This document shows positions 54,698 to 63,900 of a stretch of 64,000 nt of DNA, in pieces (the stretch's first letter is position 1; every line of letters begins with the position of its first letter). The DNA lies in the NCBI RefSeq assembly GCF_005144715.1, contig NZ_SWKR01000002.1, positions 682,001 through 746,000 on the forward strand. Reading direction: 5' to 3'. The notes under the pieces are model-generated. The model saw nothing but the letters and a program-made list of their open reading frames with translations. It did not search any database and had not been told where the DNA came from. The translations under genes were made by a program, and so were the position numbers. The DNA comes from Sphingomonas baiyangensis (lineage in GTDB: Bacteria > Pseudomonadota > Alphaproteobacteria > Sphingomonadales > Sphingomonadaceae).

Positions 54698-57600
54698 CTA
54701 TTCGACCGCAACCAGATTGTCGTCGCCGTTACGATCGACATATTTGTTGTACGGATCGATGCCGGCGAACGCGGGCCGCCGATCGGTGACCAAGCGTATC
54801 TGCTGGCGACCGCTGCGCACCGGGCGGCGCTCCATGAACAGCACGTCGGCGCGGTCGAACGCGCCGATGCCGGGGCGCGCGGTGAACAGGCCGATGTCGA
54901 TTTCGTCGGCCAGGGGTGCTGCGCGCTCGGCCCCCTGCCCATCGGCATAGGCCTTGCCCGCTTCGACCGTCAGCACCGTCTCGAACCGGCCGGGCGCCAC
55001 TTGCCGCGTCGACGCGGCCGTTGCCTTCAGGTCGTAGATGGTGATGCGTTCGAGCAGATCGGCGACGAGCTGGCGCTCGGCATCGTTGCGCGCGAGGCTG
55101 CGGAAGCCCTCGACCAGCTCGGTCGAGCGCGCATAGGGCTGGCTCTTGAAGCGGTAGCGCGCGAGCAGGTTGGCGAGCATGGCGTTGACGCGGTCCTCGC
55201 CCAGCCGGTCCTGCAACAGGTACATCGCCAGCGCGCCCTTGCGGTAATGGATATAGCCCTGATTCTCGACACGGTTGAGCGGCAGTTCCTCGATCGCCTC
55301 GCCGCCGCGTGAGCGCAGATAGTTGTCGAGCTCGTATTTCAGGAAGCGGCGGATGCGATCTTCGCCGTACAGCTCCTTCATCACCATCAGCGCACCATAT
55401 TGCGCCATCGTCTCGACCAGCATCGTGCCGCCCTGCATGTCGGCACTGATGAGCTGGTGCGCCCAATATTGGTGCGCCATCTCGTGTGCGGTGACGTAGG
55501 TCACGTAATCGATGGCGTCGGGATCGCGCGTGTCGGCGATGAAGCCGATCTTCTCCGAATAGGGGATGGTGCCGGCAAAGGCCTGCGCGAAGGTCGCGTA
55601 GCCGGGAAACTCGATGATGCGCGCATAGTCGAACTGATAGGGGCCGAAGGCGCGCTCGAAATAGGCGAGCGAGCGCTGCATCGCGGTCAGCATCTTGGGT
55701 ACGTTATAGTCGTGCGCGGGATGGTGATAGACGCTGAGCGCGACATCGCCCGCCTGCGCCTTCGCCTCGGCATAGCGCGCCGACTGAACCGAGAAGAAGG
55801 CGAGGATCGGCGCGCTCGACACGAAGCGTGCGGTGCGGCGGCCGTTGGCGGTTTCGTCCGACATGCGACTGCCGGGCGCGACGGGCGTCTGGTCGCTCGT
55901 TGAGACGGTGATGTCGGACATCACCCAGTCGGCATTGCCGATATAGTTGCGCCGCGTGGCGGCCAGATCCTCGAGCTTGGCGGGGCGCAGCTCGGCGGGC
56001 AGGCCGTATTTGCGTCGTTCGCTGCGATCGGTGAGCAGGCCGATGCGTTGCATGCCGATCTGCGGCGCGAACTCGGTATTGTTGAGGAAGCTACCATTGG
56101 CGACCAGCCGCGTGTCGTCGCCATTGGCGCGCAGCCCGCGCTGCTCGCGCCGCGTGGTGAAATCGAGCGTGGTGCGTGCACCCGGCGCGAGCGGCGTATC
56201 GAAGCGGTAGATGCGGTATTTGTGCAGCCGGTCTTCCATCGCCAGCGTGGCGTTGGGGAGGCCGAGGCCGGTAATTTCGGTGTTCGGATCGCCCATGCGG
56301 ACGTGCAGCGTCTCGATCGGCGCGTCGGTATCGTTGACGAGCGTGTAGCGCCCGCGCGCTTCCATGCGGCGCTCGGCCGGATAGAGATCGACGCGAACGC
56401 GCATCGCCGTCGCCGAGGGCTGCGCCACATTCTCGTATTTGAGGAAGCGCTTTTCATATTCGGCAAGCCGCGCATTGCGATCGTCACGCGTGCGATAGGT
56501 GTTGAGGACGTTCATGTTCCAGTAGAGGAACGCGCCGGTGCCCGCGAACACCAGCAGCGCCGCCGCGATGACGATGCCGGGGGTGCCGCGCAACCGCGCG
56601 GGCATGCGCCGCAGCCGCGCCTTCAACCGTGTCTCGGTGCCGCGCCGCCACAGCAGGTGCGCGAGCACCGCCAGCACGATGGCGAAGGCGCCCCAGTAGA
56701 GCCGCAGCCACCAGCCGAGCGGCCCGCCGACCTGATCGCCGTTGATGTCCGAAAGCTGAGGCGTGCCACTGGCGCCGTAGAGGTAGAGCGGATGCTCGAA
56801 GCCGACATTCGACAGCGTGATGGTGGCGACCAGATAGACGACCATCAGCGCCCAGCCGACATATTTGTTGGGGCTGAGCGCCTGGATGAACACCGCCAGC
56901 ACCGCGATCAGGACCATGTCGATGCCATAGGGCAGCAGATACCAGCCCAGATACTGACCCAGATCAATCGACGCGCCGCCGCGGATCGTCTGCACGAGGA
57001 TCGCGGCGACGACCGAGATGGCGAGCGTCGCGAACAGCACCAGCGATACCGCCAGCGTCTTGGGCAGCATATAGGCCCAGTTGGGCAGCGCCGTCGCATC
57101 GACGATCTCGTGCATCCGCCGGTCGCGATCGCGCCACACCACTTCGCCGGCATAATAGATCGCGATGATGATGGGGATGATGCCGAACGCGCCGAACAGC
57201 ACTTCGAGGATGGCGAAGGTAAGGGGCCGCGCGGGCGTGCCGTACAGCTCGTTCGAGCCGATCAGGCCGCCCACGGCATTGGCGAGACCGATGACGATGA
57301 GCACGAAGAAGGCTGGGCTCTTGACGAGCTGGCCGATCTCGAAGCGGCAACGACGCAACAACTGGCTGCGCCACGCCCGCTCGGGAGCGACGGGCGGCAG
57401 CGTCGCCACAAGCTCGGGCGCGACAGCACCGAGCTTCGCCGCGCTGCGCGCCTGCCGGCGCAGCTTGCGCTTCGAGATGCCACGCTCGGCGAAGCTGAAG
57501 CGCCAATAGGCGATGACCAGCGCAAGCAGCGCGACGCCGAGCACCAGGATACGATTAACGAGCAGGCGCCCCTCGAACGGCGCGATCAGCGTGTTCGATT

Positions 57601-58279
57601 CGCTCGCCGTCCAGTAGCGCGTGGCGTTGCCGAGCGCGGCGATGCCGAACGGCTCGAAATAGGCGACGGTATCGCGCCATTCGGGCTTCGAGGCAGTGAC
57701 GCCTACCAGCACGAAATAGGCGACGAGGAACACGACGACGCCGAGATAGCTGTACATCATCGAACGCGTCATGGTCGCGACCGCGAAGAAGATCGCCGCC
57801 GTGAGGACGAGGTTGGGCAACGCTAGCGCGGTGAAGGCGAAGGCATAGTCGCGCGCGCGATTGGGCCCCAGCGTCTCGGCATCGAGCCAAGGCATCAGCG
57901 ATCCGATCCACATCGCCAGCGGCACCGCGGCGAAGGCAATGACCGCTGCACCCAGCGCGCCGGCGAACCGGCCGATCAGATAATCGAACCTGGCGACGCG
58001 CGTGGAGCGCACCATCGGCCCGAAGCCGCTCTCGTCGTCGCGCACGATCACGTTCGCCACGAACGCGGTCGTGACGAACATGAAGAACACCGACATGATG
58101 AGGTGCGTCTGCGCGATCGCCGCGGGCGAATTGGCATGCACGTTGCCGCCGCTGCCGATCTGGATCTGGTCGATCGTCACGGCGCCGAAGGTCAGCAGGA
58201 AGAACAGGATCGCGACGACCCAGAAGACGGGGCTGCCGAGCTGGTAGCGGAGTTCGAAGCTGGCGATGCGGCCGAACAT
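54698..58279 (-). CDS. ABC permease fused to an M1-type metallopeptidase
   Basis: A 1193-residue protein. Two ABC2-type permease halves with about a dozen helices (for example FWVVAILFFLLTFGAVTI and LVLTAAIFFAVATM) occupy roughly residues 1-590. The remaining part is a periplasmic M1-like aminopeptidase with zinc motif HEMAHQYWAHQ (H932, E933, H936) and a downstream Glu E956 in LVETMAQYGALMVM. The Glu is 20 residues after the second His, one more than the usual HExxH-x18-E. The gene follows its ATPase gene by 18 bases. Together they could move a peptide or protein and cleave it, or sense one. Substrate unknown. Confidence 0.88.
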   Translation of the reverse strand: MFGRIASFELRYQLGSPVFWVVAILFFLLTFGAVTIDQIQIGSGGNVHANSPAAIAQTHLIMSVFFMFVTTAFVANVIVRDDESGFGPMVRSTRVARFDYLIGRFAGALGAAVIAFAAVPLAMWIGSLMPWLDAETLGPNRARDYAFAFTALALPNLVLTAAIFFAVATMTRSMMYSYLGVVVFLVAYFVLVGVTASKPEWRDTVAYFEPFGIAALGNATRYWTASESNTLIAPFEGRLLVNRILVLGVALLALVIAYWRFSFAERGISKRKLRRQARSAAKLGAVAPELVATLPPVAPERAWRSQLLRRCRFEIGQLVKSPAFFVLIVIGLANAVGGLIGSNELYGTPARPLTFAILEVLFGAFGIIPIIIAIYYAGEVVWRDRDRRMHEIVDATALPNWAYMLPKTLAVSLVLFATLAISVVAAILVQTIRGGASIDLGQYLGWYLLPYGIDMVLIAVLAVFIQALSPNKYVGWALMVVYLVATITLSNVGFEHPLYLYGASGTPQLSDINGDQVGGPLGWWLRLYWGAFAIVLAVLAHLLWRRGTETRLKARLRRMPARLRGTPGIVIAAALLVFAGTGAFLYWNMNVLNTYRTRDDRNARLAEYEKRFLKYENVAQPSATAMRVRVDLYPAERRMEARGRYTLVNDTDAPIETLHVRMGDPNTEITGLGLPNATLAMEDRLHKYRIYRFDTPLAPGARTTLDFTTRREQRGLRANGDDTRLVANGSFLNNTEFAPQIGMQRIGLLTDRSERRKYGLPAELRPAKLEDLAATRRNYIGNADWVMSDITVSTSDQTPVAPGSRMSDETANGRRTARFVSSAPILAFFSVQSARYAEAKAQAGDVALSVYHHPAHDYNVPKMLTAMQRSLAYFERAFGPYQFDYARIIEFPGYATFAQAFAGTIPYSEKIGFIADTRDPDAIDYVTYVTAHEMAHQYWAHQLISADMQGGTMLVETMAQYGALMVMKELYGEDRIRRFLKYELDNYLRSRGGEAIEELPLNRVENQGYIHYRKGALAMYLLQDRLGEDRVNAMLANLLARYRFKSQPYARSTELVEGFRSLARNDAERQLVADLLERITIYDLKATAASTRQVAPGRFETVLTVEAGKAYADGQGAERAAPLADEIDIGLFTARPGIGAFDRADVLFMERRPVRSGRQQIRLVTDRRPAFAGIDPYNKYVDRNGDDNLVAVE

Positions 58280-59247: not shown

Positions 59248-60840
59248 CTATGCGGCCTGCAGGCTGTACCCCTTGTATTTCTCGCGCAGCGCGGTCTTGA
59301 GCAGCTTGCCCGTGGCGGTGTGCGGCAACTCGTCGACGAAATGGATTTCGTCGGGCAGCCACCATTTGGCGACCTGCCCGGCCAGATGCGCCTGGATCGC
59401 CTCGGGCGTCACGTCGCTGCCGGGCTTCTTCACCACCAGCAGGATCGGCCGCTCCTCCCAGCGCGGGTGATGCACGCCGATCGCCGCCGCCTCGGCGACG
59501 CCGGGGCAGCCCACCGCGGCATTCTCGAGATCGACCGAGCTGATCCACTCGCCGCCCGACTTGATGACGTCCTTGGCGCGATCGGTGATCTGCATCGTGT
59601 TGTCGGGGTGGATGACGGCGACGTCGCCAGTGTCGAACCAGCCATCAGCGTCGACGCAGGGCTGCTCTTCGCCGAAATATTGCTGGATGATCCATGGCCC
59701 GCGTACCTGCAACCGGCCCGAGCTCTGCCCGTCGCGCGGCTGCGGTTCGCCAGCATCGTTGACGATCCGCATCTCGACGCCGAAGGGCGCGCGGCCCTGC
59801 TTGCAGACCTGATCGACCTGCTGCTCGAAGCTAAGTTCGTCCCAGTCGTAGCTCTTGGCGCCGATGGTGCCGATCGGCGAAGTCTCGGTCATGCCCCAGG
59901 CGTGGTTGACGCGGATATCCATCTTCATCAGCCGCTCGATCATCGATCGCGGCGCCGCCGACCCGCCGATGGTGACGACTTGCAGATGCTTCGGCGCATC
60001 GCCCGTCGCGTCCATGTGCTGGAACATCGCGAACCATACGGTGGGCACTCCCGCCGAGTGCGTCACCTTCTCGCGATTCATCAGTTCGCACAGTATCTTG
60101 GGCTCGTTGACGCACGAAAAGACGAGCTTGAGACCGACGGCCGGCGAGGCGAAGGGCATGCCCCAGCCGACGGCATGGAACATCGGCACAATCGGCATCG
60201 CCACCGAGCGCGCCGAGAGATCGAACACCGAGGGCTGCAATTCGGCGAGCGCGTGGATCATCGACGAGCGGTGCGAATAGACCACGCCCTTCGGATTGCC
60301 CGTGGTGCCGCTGGTGTAGCACAGCATGCACGGCTCGCGTTCGGAACCCTCGACCCATGTATAGTCGCCATTCTCAGGCGCGATCAGCGCCTCGAAGCTG
60401 TTTTCGCCGTCGCCATCGAAGACGACGTAGTGCTCGATCGTCGTCCACTGGTCCTTCATCTTGTCGACCAGCGGCTGGAACATCCGGTCGTACATCAGCA
60501 CGCGATCTTCGGCGTGATTGGCGATATAGGCGAGCTGATCGGGAAACAGGCGCGGATTGATGGTATGGACGATCCCGCCCATGCCGATGGTGCCGTACCA
60601 CGCGACCAGATGGCGGGCATGGTTCATCGCGAGCGTGGCGACACGGTCGCCGGGCTTCAGCCCCAGCCGTTCGAGTGCCTGCGCCAGCCGGCGCGAATCA
60701 TGCGCGATCTCGCCCCAGTTGGTCACGCTCTCGCTGCCATCGGCCCAGCGCGTCAGGATCTCGCGCGTCGCATGCTCGCGCTCGGCATGTTCGATCAGCC
60801 GCGGGATGCGCAGCTCGAAATCCTGCATTCCACCAAGCAT
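59248..60840 (-). CDS. long-chain fatty-acid--CoA ligase
   Basis: A 530-residue AMP-forming acyl-CoA synthetase. P-loop [17 protein letters not shown], adenylation motifs [11 protein letters not shown] and [12 protein letters not shown], and the C-terminal-domain lysine near [13 protein letters not shown] are intact. It activates fatty acids for degradation or lipid synthesis. ATG 60840 ([14 protein letters not shown]) has ACGGAGAGG three bases upstream. It lies between dnaE and the ABC cluster on the same strand, with 57 bases before the ATPase gene. Confidence 0.92.
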
Positions 60841-60902
60841 CGACCTCTCCGTTTTTCTCGTTTCGGGTACGGAGAATAGCCGCTCGTGCGCGGGCGTCCA
60901 GC

Positions 60903-63900
60903 CTATCCGGCGAGTTGCAATTTGGGGCTCATCAGATCGCTCGATCGAATACCGGGCACGGCGTCGATCGCCGCCACCAGCTCATGGTCGAGCAGAAAGT
61001 CGTCGCCGAGCAATATCTCGGCCTCGGCGCCATCGCGCAAAGGCGTCAGGATGCGGACCCGGCCGCGCCCGCCGCGCTGGTCGCGCAGCATCGCGCCGAG
61101 CGGTACGAGCGCGGCGGCGTCGTCGACCCAGAGGCTCAGCACCAGCCGCGCGTTGTTCGAGAGCGTCTCGAATGCCTGCACGCTCTTGACGGTGACGCGC
61201 GCCGCATCCTCGCCGGCGCGGCGATCGAGCTCGATCTGAAGCAGCGCGCATCCGCCGGCACGCGCGGCTTCCTCGAGCGCATCGGCGGGGGCATCGTCGA
61301 AACAGGTCGCCACGGTCTGGCCGCTAGAGTCCGAAAGTGTCGCCATCATGTAGCGCTTGCCGCGCGCCGAGGTGCGCCAGCGCGCGTCCTCGACCAGCGC
61401 GGCGATCGTCGCACCGGCACGCGCGCCCTCCGCCACGTTGACTTCGGCCAGCGCCGCGATCGGACGGGCGGCGTGTACCCTGGCGAGATGCGCATAGCGA
61501 TCGAGCGGATGCGCCGAGAAATAGAAGCCGAACGCTTCCTTCTCGGCACCGATGCGCTGCGCCAGCGTCCAGCCGGCACTCGCGGGGAGGCGGATGGGCG
61601 GCTCGCTCGCCTCGCCGTCGCCGAACAGCCCCCCCTGCCCGCTCGCGCGGCCCGCATGGATGCGCTGCGCCGTTGCGAGGATCGTCTCGGCGGCGGCGTG
61701 CACGCCGGCGCGGTTGTCGGCGAGGCAATCGAACGCGCCGGCGGCGGCAAGCGTCTCGACCTGCCGCTTATTGAGCAGTCGCGGATCGACTCGGCGGGCG
61801 AAATCGTCGAGCGAGGTGAACGCGCCTTTCGCGCGCCGCTCCTCGACCACCAGCTCCATCGCGCGCTCGCCGACGCCCTTCAACGCCGCCAGCGCATAGC
61901 GCACCGCCAGCCCTTCGCCATGCGGCTGCACGTCGAACTCGGCCTCGCTCGCGTTCACGTCGGGCGGCAGGCAGGTGACGCCCAGCCGCTTCATGTCGTC
62001 GACGAAGATCGCGAGCTTGTCGGTCAGCGCGAGGTCGAAGCACATCGATGCCGCGAAGAACTCGTGGCGATAATGCGCCTTCAGCCAGGCCGTCTGATAG
62101 GCGAGCAGCGCGTAGGCGGCGGCATGGCTCTTGTTGAAGCCATAGCCCGCGAACTTGTCGATCAAATCGAACAGCTCGTTGGCCTTGGCGGCGGGAATCG
62201 CATGATGCTCGGCACAGCCCGCGACGAAGATCGCGCGCTGCGCGTCCATTTCGGCCTTCACCTTCTTGCCCATCGCGCGGCGCAGCAGATCGGCGCCGCC
62301 GAGCGAATAGCCCGCCAGCACCTGCGCGGCCTGCATCACCTGCTCCTGATAGACGAAGATGCCGTAGGTCTCGGCAAGGATCGGTTCGAGCAGCGGGTGC
62401 GGATAGGTGACGGGCTCGCGCCCGTTCTTGCGCGCGCCGAAACTCGGGATGTTGTCCATCGGCCCCGGCCGGTAGAGCGAAACGAGCGCGATGATGTCGC
62501 CGAAATTGGACGGACGCACCGCCGAGAGCGTGCGGCGCATCCCTTCGGATTCGAGCTGGAACACGCCCACCGTATCGCCGCGCTGGAGCAGCGCGTACAC
62601 GCCCTCATCGTCCCACGGCAGCGTGTCGAGATCGATCGCGATGCCGCGCTTGGCGAGCAGGTCGACGGCCTTGCGCAAGACGCTCAATGTCTTGAGGCCG
62701 AGAAAGTCGAACTTCACCAGTCCCGCGCCCTCGACATATTTCATGTCGAACTGCGTGACGGGCATGTCCGAGCGCGGATCGCGGTAGAGCGGTACGAGCT
62801 CGGCGAGCGGGCGGTCGCCGATCACCACGCCGGCGGCGTGCGTCGATGAATGGCGCGGCAGCCCTTCGAGCTGCTTGGCGAGGTCGAGCAGCCGGCGCAC
62901 ATCGTCCTCGCGCTCATAGGCGTGCGCGAGCTCGGATACGCCGTTGATCGCGCGTTCGAGCGTCCACGGGTCGGTGGGGTGGTTGGGCACCAGCTTGGCC
63001 AGCCGGTCGACCTGCCCGTAGCTCATCTGGAGGACGCGGCCGGTATCCTTCAGCACCGCGCGCGCCTTGAGCTTCCCGAAGGTGATGATCTGCGCGACAT
63101 GGTCGCCGCCATATTTGCGCTGCACGTAGCGGATGACCTCGCCGCGCCGCGTTTCGCAGAAGTCGATGTCGAAATCGGGCATCGACACGCGCTCGGGATT
63201 GAGGAAGCGCTCGAACAGCAGCCCCAGCTTGATGGGATCGAGATCGGTGATCGTCAGCGCCCAGGCGACGACCGAGCCCGCCCCCGATCCGCGACCCGGC
63301 CCCACCGGAATGTCGTTGTCCTTGGCCCATTTGATGAAGTCGGCGACGATGAGGAAATAGCCCGGAAACCCCATCTGGATGATGACGTCGAGCTCGAACT
63401 CTAGCCGCTCGCGATATTCGGTTTCCCAACCCTCGGCACGCTCGCTGCCCTCGAGCGCGGCGATCCGGTCGAGCCGCTCTTGCAAGCCTTGGCGCGCGGT
63501 TTCGCGCAGCATCGCCGCCTCGCCCTCGCGGTCGCCGGCGAGGCTCGGCAGGATCGGTTTGCGCTTGGGCGCGGCCACCGCGCAACGCTGCGCCACCACC
63601 AGCGTATTGGCGATCGCCTCAGGCAGATCGGCGAAGTCGCTGCGCATCGTGTCGGCGGGCTTGATCCATGCGTCGGGCGAACTGCGCTTGCGATCCTCGG
63701 ACATCACATAGGTCGAGTGCGCGATGCACAGCATGGCGTCGTGCGCGGCATGAAAGCCCGCATCGGCGAAGCAACTCGGATTAGTTGCGACCAGCGGCAG
63801 GTCATTGGCGTAAGCGAGATCGATGAGCGCCGCCTCGGCGCGCTGCTCGATCGCGTCGCCGCGCCGCGCCAGCTCGATATAGAGCCGGTCGCCGAACAGG

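Follow-up and report, generated by a model that had tools for sequence, protein, structure and literature searches.

A conserved and apparently unstudied fusion of an ABC exporter permease with an M1-fold domain whose active site departs from that of ordinary aminopeptidases

Introduction

The window analysed here, 64,000 nucleotides of Sphingomonas baiyangensis DNA (contig NZ_SWKR01000002.1, positions 682,001 to 746,000), contains a gene whose product joins an ATP-binding cassette (ABC) exporter permease to a domain with the fold of the M1 metallopeptidases. What does such a domain do on a transporter, and is it an aminopeptidase at all? The comparisons described below place the fusion protein in a conserved, apparently unstudied lineage, the active site of which has drifted from that of ordinary aminopeptidases. 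No publication on a permease-M1 fusion was found among the titles and abstract openings listed by literature searches, which covered few subscription papers.

Results and Discussion

Overall architecture

The gene begins with an ATG at 58279 and ends with a stop at 54698 on the minus strand; the plus-strand frame across the same interval (54698-58279) is interrupted by stops. An initial annotation, made from the sequence of the window, had described a permease and an M1-like peptidase in one chain of 1193 residues. The reading frame, the Pfam match of the peptidase part and the structure models agree with this description. The chain consists of two permease halves, a predicted thirteenth transmembrane helix (TM13) and a C-terminal ectodomain (Table 1). 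The ATPase gene lies upstream on the same strand, 17 nucleotides separating its end from the ATG of the fusion, and its product carries the Walker A, signature and Walker B motifs.

The permease was modelled as residues 1-606, with a predicted local distance difference test score (pLDDT) of 83.0 and a predicted template modelling score (pTM) of 0.75. The individual halves matched NosY and PmtD (Table 1). In addition, residues 1-547 matched a mycobacterial efflux pump (8k1m-8k1p) with a Z of 17.8 and a root mean square deviation (RMSD) of 4.7 over 457 aligned residues, and ABCG2 was also among the matches. The matches to NosY, PmtD and the efflux pump suggest that the permease is made of two tandem ABC-2/type V halves. 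Type V transporters are defined in PMC8386196 by 6+6 helices and by elbow helices, with further short helices located between TM5 and TM6. The permease model has the predicted 6+6 type V (ABC-2) fold, with predicted elbow helices at residues 2-15 and 303-319 and short helices at 199-208, 213-219 and 225-230. The 4+4 type VII fold (MacB/YbbAP) was absent from the 50 matches listed for this model. The Pfam family ABC2_membrane_3 scored 23.2 bits in the window protein, under its cut-off of 31.6, and was matched at E 0.001 by 11 of 17 family members.

The permease chain of the efflux pump has the size of both halves together, but at 509-530 residues in the structures it is too short to include an M1 ectodomain as well. 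The NosDFY and PmtCD exporters share the fold of one permease half each; their chains are half-size, unlike the fusion. The linker that precedes TM13 (residues 543-565) is basic, with nine Lys or Arg among 23 residues. By the positive-inside rule, this linker suggests that the chain beyond TM13, and with it the ectodomain, is periplasmic.

The full-length model (pLDDT 86.9, pTM 0.81) allowed comparison of the ectodomain, from about residue 604 to 1193, with known structures. Among the 50 matches listed were ERAP1/2, IRAP, EryP, PepN and LTA4H, with VIA Z values of 25.7-31.7 and RMSD values of 3.2-5.7 over 400-499 aligned residues. Pfam Peptidase_M1 (PF01433) matched residues 866-1047 with 36.7 bits (cut-off 27.7). 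The modelled ectodomain thus has the M1 fold, with domains I-III. The helical domain IV was not found in the model: beyond residue 1079 there are strands and loops, and the only helical stretches are short ones at 1143-1145 and 1185-1188. The alignments to ERAP1 end at residues 587-640. A library of viral structures gave two matches (E up to 0.001), namely a Tupanvirus M1-like protein and an Indivirus M61 protein.

The candidate zinc site

The initial annotation had placed a candidate zinc site at H932, H936 and E956, with E956 at H936+20, that is, with 19 intervening residues (x19). The sequence bears out these positions and has E933 as the Glu of HEXXH. Conservation was examined among 138 distinct fusions covering at least 900 profile positions, from which duplicates had been removed by a 200-residue core and in which split copies were left unjoined. 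HEXXH was present in 134 of these relatives, and all 134 had x19, which rejects a sequencing or frame error; the remaining four are degenerate. Among 62 sampled stand-alone M1-type proteins, x18 was found in 56 (30 of PepN type and 26 others), x17 in five, x16 in one, and x19 in none.

The profile alignment with ERAP-type enzymes (probability 99.23) contains a single extra residue, near 949/950 in the loop between the helices. As the extra residue sits in a loop, E956 aligns with the classical M1 Glu. The same placement was obtained with LTA4H-type enzymes (98.14), with the type of L002, another M1-like protein of the same genome (97.38), and with the VGGMEY rows (24.98), whereas the PepN comparison (72.97) misplaced residue 956. 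In the model, HEXXH lies within helix 925-939, and E956 is among the first residues of helix 953-971; the mean pLDDT was 89-92 in three blocks of residues 931-960.

A different Glu at the canonical place was considered and rejected. Position 955 is Val in 73 relatives, Ser in 47, Ile in seven, Thr in four, Leu in three, and Asp, Tyr and Pro in one each, with one gap among the 138. The sole acidic residue there, the Asp of row L143, is accompanied by E956. Alignment and conservation (Glu in 137 of 138) therefore support E956 as the candidate third zinc ligand, and H932, H936 and E956 may bind zinc together.

The altered spacing itself, which the initial annotation had stressed, holds as a mark of the fusion lineage. 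It is weak as a functional novelty, since it reflects a loop insertion and M1-like spacing varies elsewhere too: x17 occurs in the stand-alone M1-like proteins L212, L214, L215, L216 and L227, and x16 in L228. The x17 proteins resemble the fusion in departing from x18 and in having no GXMEN motif by eye; they differ in their shorter spacing and in the wording of the active site, HEILHNWWGN.

The GXMEN place and the candidate catalytic Tyr

PMC2241622 gives the M1 signature as GXMEN-X22-38-HEXXH-X18-E, and PMC10343166 proposes that the Glu of GXMEN contacts the amino terminus of the substrate. In the fusion, the segment FAQAFAG is aligned with this place. Position 900, aligned with the GXMEN Glu, is Ala in 111 relatives, Ser in 26 and Val in one; Glu was found at the aligned place in none of the 138. 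Of the five subtype comparisons, only the ERAP-like one fixed the place of GXMEN: the LTA4H-type and PepN comparisons had gaps there, the L002-type gave another residue, and the comparison with the VGGMEY rows (24.98) did not extend that far.

A nearby acidic residue, E909, is kept in 132 of the 138 relatives and is absent from all six shorter fusions of a second type. In the ERAP2 and ERAP-like M1 alignments it corresponds to the acid of the YRE/YRD motif of ERAP-type enzymes. E909 is unlikely to be the GXMEN Glu itself, as this would leave 21 residues after the Asn place, compared with 22-38 in the signature. Loss of GXMEN has precedent. Short actinobacterial proteins and Ap-O are described in PMC2241622 as lacking the motif, the short actinobacterial proteins retaining the Glu. 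The x17 stand-alone proteins read GMPSF, GMPGF or VAYPGF in the usual stretch.

The candidate catalytic Tyr, Y1012, matched the Tyr of other M1 profiles in all five subtype comparisons. It is retained by the identical 134 rows that retain HEXXH, so that HEXXH, E956 and Y1012 are all kept in 134 of 138. Inactivity across all homologues, which the initial annotation had named as grounds for dropping its proposal, is therefore not what the sequences suggest.

In summary of the comparison with M1 aminopeptidases (ERAP1/2, IRAP, PepN, EryP and LTA4H), the fusion shares domains I-III, HEXXH, the downstream Glu and Tyr-x-Lys-Gly with them. Unlike them, it has x19, lacks a Glu at the GXMEN place, lacks domain IV, carries a permease, and falls on a separate branch. 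The missing GXMEN Glu and the missing domain IV, neither of which had been noticed in the initial annotation, are stronger departures than the spacing. They make the name "aminopeptidase" doubtful. Because these signature features were looked for and are lacking, we class the fusion as an M1-fold lineage rather than as an M1 aminopeptidase.

Lineage and distribution

The initial annotation had also suggested a distinct lineage, and both trees place the fusions on one side of a single branch. In the tree of 67 rows, a branch with support 100/99 parts 36 fusion rows (27 of the main type, six of the shorter second type and three degenerate) from 31 stand-alone x18 rows. In the tree of 72 rows, six x16/x17 rows were added and L128 was excluded because of its very long branch. 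Here 35 fusions were separated from 37 stand-alone proteins (99/96), and the fusion branch was present in 100% of 200 bootstrap trees. Support for the stand-alone x18 group dropped to 66/69. The five x17 rows were the nearest stand-alone neighbours of the fusions (94/73, not starred, with a long-branch warning). As the trees were midpoint rooted, the split alone is used here. The alignments A2 (60 rows) and A3 (58 rows) were taken from 81 sequences, P0001 and 80 loci; L105 was dropped from A2 for its stop codons.

The 80 loci are the best of 421 relatives found by pattern in the genome collection, and come from Sphingomonadales, Caulobacterales, Halieaceae and others. Within the genus, a whole or split copy is present in 14 of 37 genomes. 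In the phylum sample, a nearly full-length match at E=0 was found in 29 of 397 genomes. Matches were found in 27 plasmid records, six of them with at least 80% coverage; these add Bacteroidota, Acidobacteriota and Gemmatimonadota, and occurrence outside Pseudomonadota is taken from plasmid records only. In L121, L125 and L175 the permease part and the peptidase part occupy two reading frames, by true splitting or in broken genes. In L162 (1373-8418), a second-type fusion has as its neighbour, on the opposite strand, a classical stand-alone M1 aminopeptidase (GAMEN, x18). L002 (G000:C2:787943-788266) is the third M1-like protein of the genome studied here; it has 585 residues and x18, with GMEH replacing GXMEN.

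Conservation of the gene pair

An upstream ATPase gene on the same strand was found in all 137 loci with more than 900 nucleotides of upstream sequence, and in 135 it is at most 100 nucleotides away; the one remaining locus of the 138 has 97 nucleotides of upstream sequence only. The "dedicated ATPase" of the initial annotation is thus a constant neighbour, and its pairing with the permease is suggested by position. Among the 80 loci, no other neighbour encoded by open reading frames (ORFs) of at least 100 residues was common to more than six other loci.

Permease-only relatives were found at L118 (2827-8364) and L117 (2451-4918). Their existence suggests that the ectodomain was gained or lost as a separable unit. 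In L118, the gene next after the permease-only module encodes a protein with repeats that look calcium-binding-like by eye.

Degenerate copies

Four of the 138 relatives (L115, L116, L128 and L178) have no HEXXH. The motif reads REIARQ in L115, REVARQ in L116, REMGRS in L128 and HDAVAQ in L178, so that Arg replaces both zinc His residues in the first three. Position 1012 is His in L115, Gln in L116 and a gap in L178. In L128, the end of which lies outside the matched stretch of the 138-row set, the Tyr place was read separately and is Leu. The ATPase motifs are intact in L115, L116 and L128. That HEXXH and the Tyr were lost together fits a loss of catalysis, and the contrast with the other copies speaks for catalysis in those. 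We label the degenerate copies putative pseudo-peptidase transporters; they form a natural comparison for the part that the peptidase plays in the transporter.

L128 (520-10214) is a row of genes on a Zymomonas plasmid, encoding a TonB-type receptor, two MsbA-like ABC proteins, the ATPase and the degenerate fusion. The receptor scored 88.7 bits, under the TIGR01783 cut-off of 223.5, and the MsbA-like proteins were likewise under their cut-offs. Such neighbours may indicate a system for a small molecule or a siderophore. A search of 289 genomes of the class with the L115 protein gave nothing above 34% identity; the five full-length matches were ordinary fusions at 26-27%.

Proposed mechanism

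We tentatively favour, at slightly less than even confidence, a model in which ATP drives an exporter or membrane extractor and the substrate then passes to a zinc hydrolase tethered on the periplasmic side. The two genes would encode one ABC machine, composed of the ATPase, probably as a dimer, and a chain in which two ABC-2/type V halves are followed by TM13 and by an M1-fold zinc hydrolase in the periplasm. The ATPase would drive the permease, so that a substrate is exported from the cytoplasm or lifted from the inner membrane. The tethered zinc domain would cut this substrate upon its arrival. As the GXMEN Glu is not found in its place and the model has no lid-like domain IV, classical aminopeptidase trimming by one residue is improbable. 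Cleavage at an internal or leader-type site of a peptide, a lipopeptide or a modified amino compound seems more likely. Domain order, the conserved catalytic residues, the changed GXMEN place, the constant ATPase neighbour and the single lineage are seen in the sequences or models; periplasmic location, zinc binding, activity, direction, substrate and the coupling of export to cleavage, which the initial annotation had suggested for a peptide, belong to the proposal. If the model is true, an ATP-powered machine present in at least four bacterial phyla moves a substrate across the inner membrane, a domain of its own chain cuts that substrate on the other side, and the public name of the enzyme is misleading.

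The nearest working model is YbbAP-TesA, in which, according to PMC12646458, an ABC transporter is proposed to pass membrane-extracted substrates to a periplasmic hydrolase. It is a precedent for extraction that feeds such an enzyme. It differs from the fusion in that the transporter is of type VII and the hydrolase TesA is a multifunctional esterase/thioesterase (PMC12646458).

A more specific proposal, which we consider somewhat unlikely, is that a separate lineage of M1-fold zinc enzymes gave up aminopeptidase chemistry, having lost the N-terminus anchor and the lid domain and having an x19 zinc site. It would have come to serve a type V exporter powered by ATP as a blade on the trans side, and would also have yielded the pseudo-peptidase transporters. 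This would be a peptidase-containing ABC exporter of reversed layout, the protease lying outside instead of inside. In the peptidase-containing bacteriocin exporters of the C39 type, a cytosolic N-terminal cysteine protease and the ATPase are fused in the same chain. Protease and exporter in one chain are common to both. The fusion differs in its C-terminal zinc domain, predicted to be periplasmic, and in the separate gene for its ATPase; no C39 domain was found in the Pfam scan at E 0.01.

Several observations weigh against the exporter-hydrolase model. Likeness of fold indicates neither the direction of transport nor the substrate. The degenerate copies have no zinc site but retain both the permease and the ATPase, which means that transport may not need cleavage. 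Likewise, the permease-only relatives adjoin an ATPase of their own, recognised by its motifs by eye, in two genomes of the same genus. No substrate gene shared beside the module was found in the survey of ORFs of at least 100 residues, which leaves short precursors outside its range. Furthermore, the placement of GXMEN depends on the ERAP-type alignments, and the weak PepN comparison (72.97) set E909 against the Glu of GAMEN, so that E909 is a possible replacement anchor for the substrate N terminus.

Alternative explanations

ATP hydrolysis might instead push on the periplasmic M1 domain and open or press its active site, giving an ATP-gated peptidase that transports no substrate. In M1 enzymes, domain IV is the part that moves as the enzyme opens and closes (PMC10343166). 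With this moving domain missing here, the permease could take over the gating, and NosY, the closest match of a permease half, belongs to NosDFY according to the entry titles. However, the whole efflux pump was matched over both halves, and permease-only modules are related, which speaks for transport; we consider such mechanotransmission unlikely. A role in detoxification, in which the pump would remove toxic or antimicrobial peptides from the cell and the zinc domain would degrade them, is in keeping with the patchy distribution within the genus (14 of 37 genomes), the plasmid-borne copies, and the two-component genes that adjoin the copies on three plasmids, two from Hymenobacter and one from Pseudoalteromonas. 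The lack of any neighbour common to more than six other loci of the 80 argues against it, and we regard it as distinctly unlikely.

The two other alternatives concern the zinc domain itself. That it is mainly a binding or gating scaffold, with catalysis secondary, is suggested by the four copies that lost HEXXH and the Tyr, by the ATPase motifs kept in three of them, and by the TonB-type receptor and two further ABC proteins that accompany L128. This has a small chance of being correct, given that 134 of 138 relatives keep the catalytic residues and that close degenerate copies are rare, as judged from the L115 search (289 genomes, nothing above 34%). The chance is slimmer still that the domain is a genuine periplasmic aminopeptidase for which the exporter serves only as a tether. 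The plasmid records annotate it as "M1 family aminopeptidase", the zinc site and the Tyr are kept, and E909 (132 of 138) could act as the replacement anchor of the PepN comparison. Against this, the place of the GXMEN Glu is Ala, Ser or Val in every relative, and E909, besides being absent from the six second-type fusions, lines up with the acidic residue of YRE/YRD in ERAP-type enzymes.

Features of the window

Table 1. Coordinates of the gene pair and of the parts of the fusion protein in the window
Feature	Residues or length	Position	Strand	Basis
Fusion protein (tandem ABC exporter permease, TM13, M1-fold domain)	1193 aa	54698..58279	minus	ORF, Pfam, models
ABC ATPase	297 aa	58297..59190	minus	motifs GPNGAGKST, SGGMRQR, DEPTAGLD
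First permease half	1-265	57485..58279	minus	vs NosY: VIA Z 20.0, RMSD 3.5, 238 aligned
Second permease half	300-550	56630..57382	minus	vs PmtD: VIA Z 15.7, RMSD 3.3, 236 aligned
Predicted TM13, hydrophobic helix	566-592	56504..56584	minus	follows basic linker
M1-fold ectodomain (domains I-III)	607-1193	54701..56461	minus	structure matches of model
FAQAFAG, aligned with M1 GXMEN	897-903	55571..55591	minus	ERAP2, mixed M1 profile, ERAP-like alignments
HEMAH zinc motif	932-936	55472..55486	minus	conservation
E956, candidate third zinc ligand	956	55412..55414	minus	Glu in 137/138; remaining row ends before 956
Y1012, candidate catalytic Tyr (YxKG)	1012	55244..55246	minus	kept in 134/138

The genes beside the pair in the window (SRPBCC, alcohol dehydrogenase, short-chain dehydrogenase/reductase (SDR) and CoA ligase) were considered as parts of the system and rejected, as these neighbours are not conserved. 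At 60675-62849, a plus-strand frame of 724 residues lies antisense to a frame of 1001 residues that is DNA polymerase III alpha-like by eye; the 724-residue frame is most likely a G+C-rich shadow frame.

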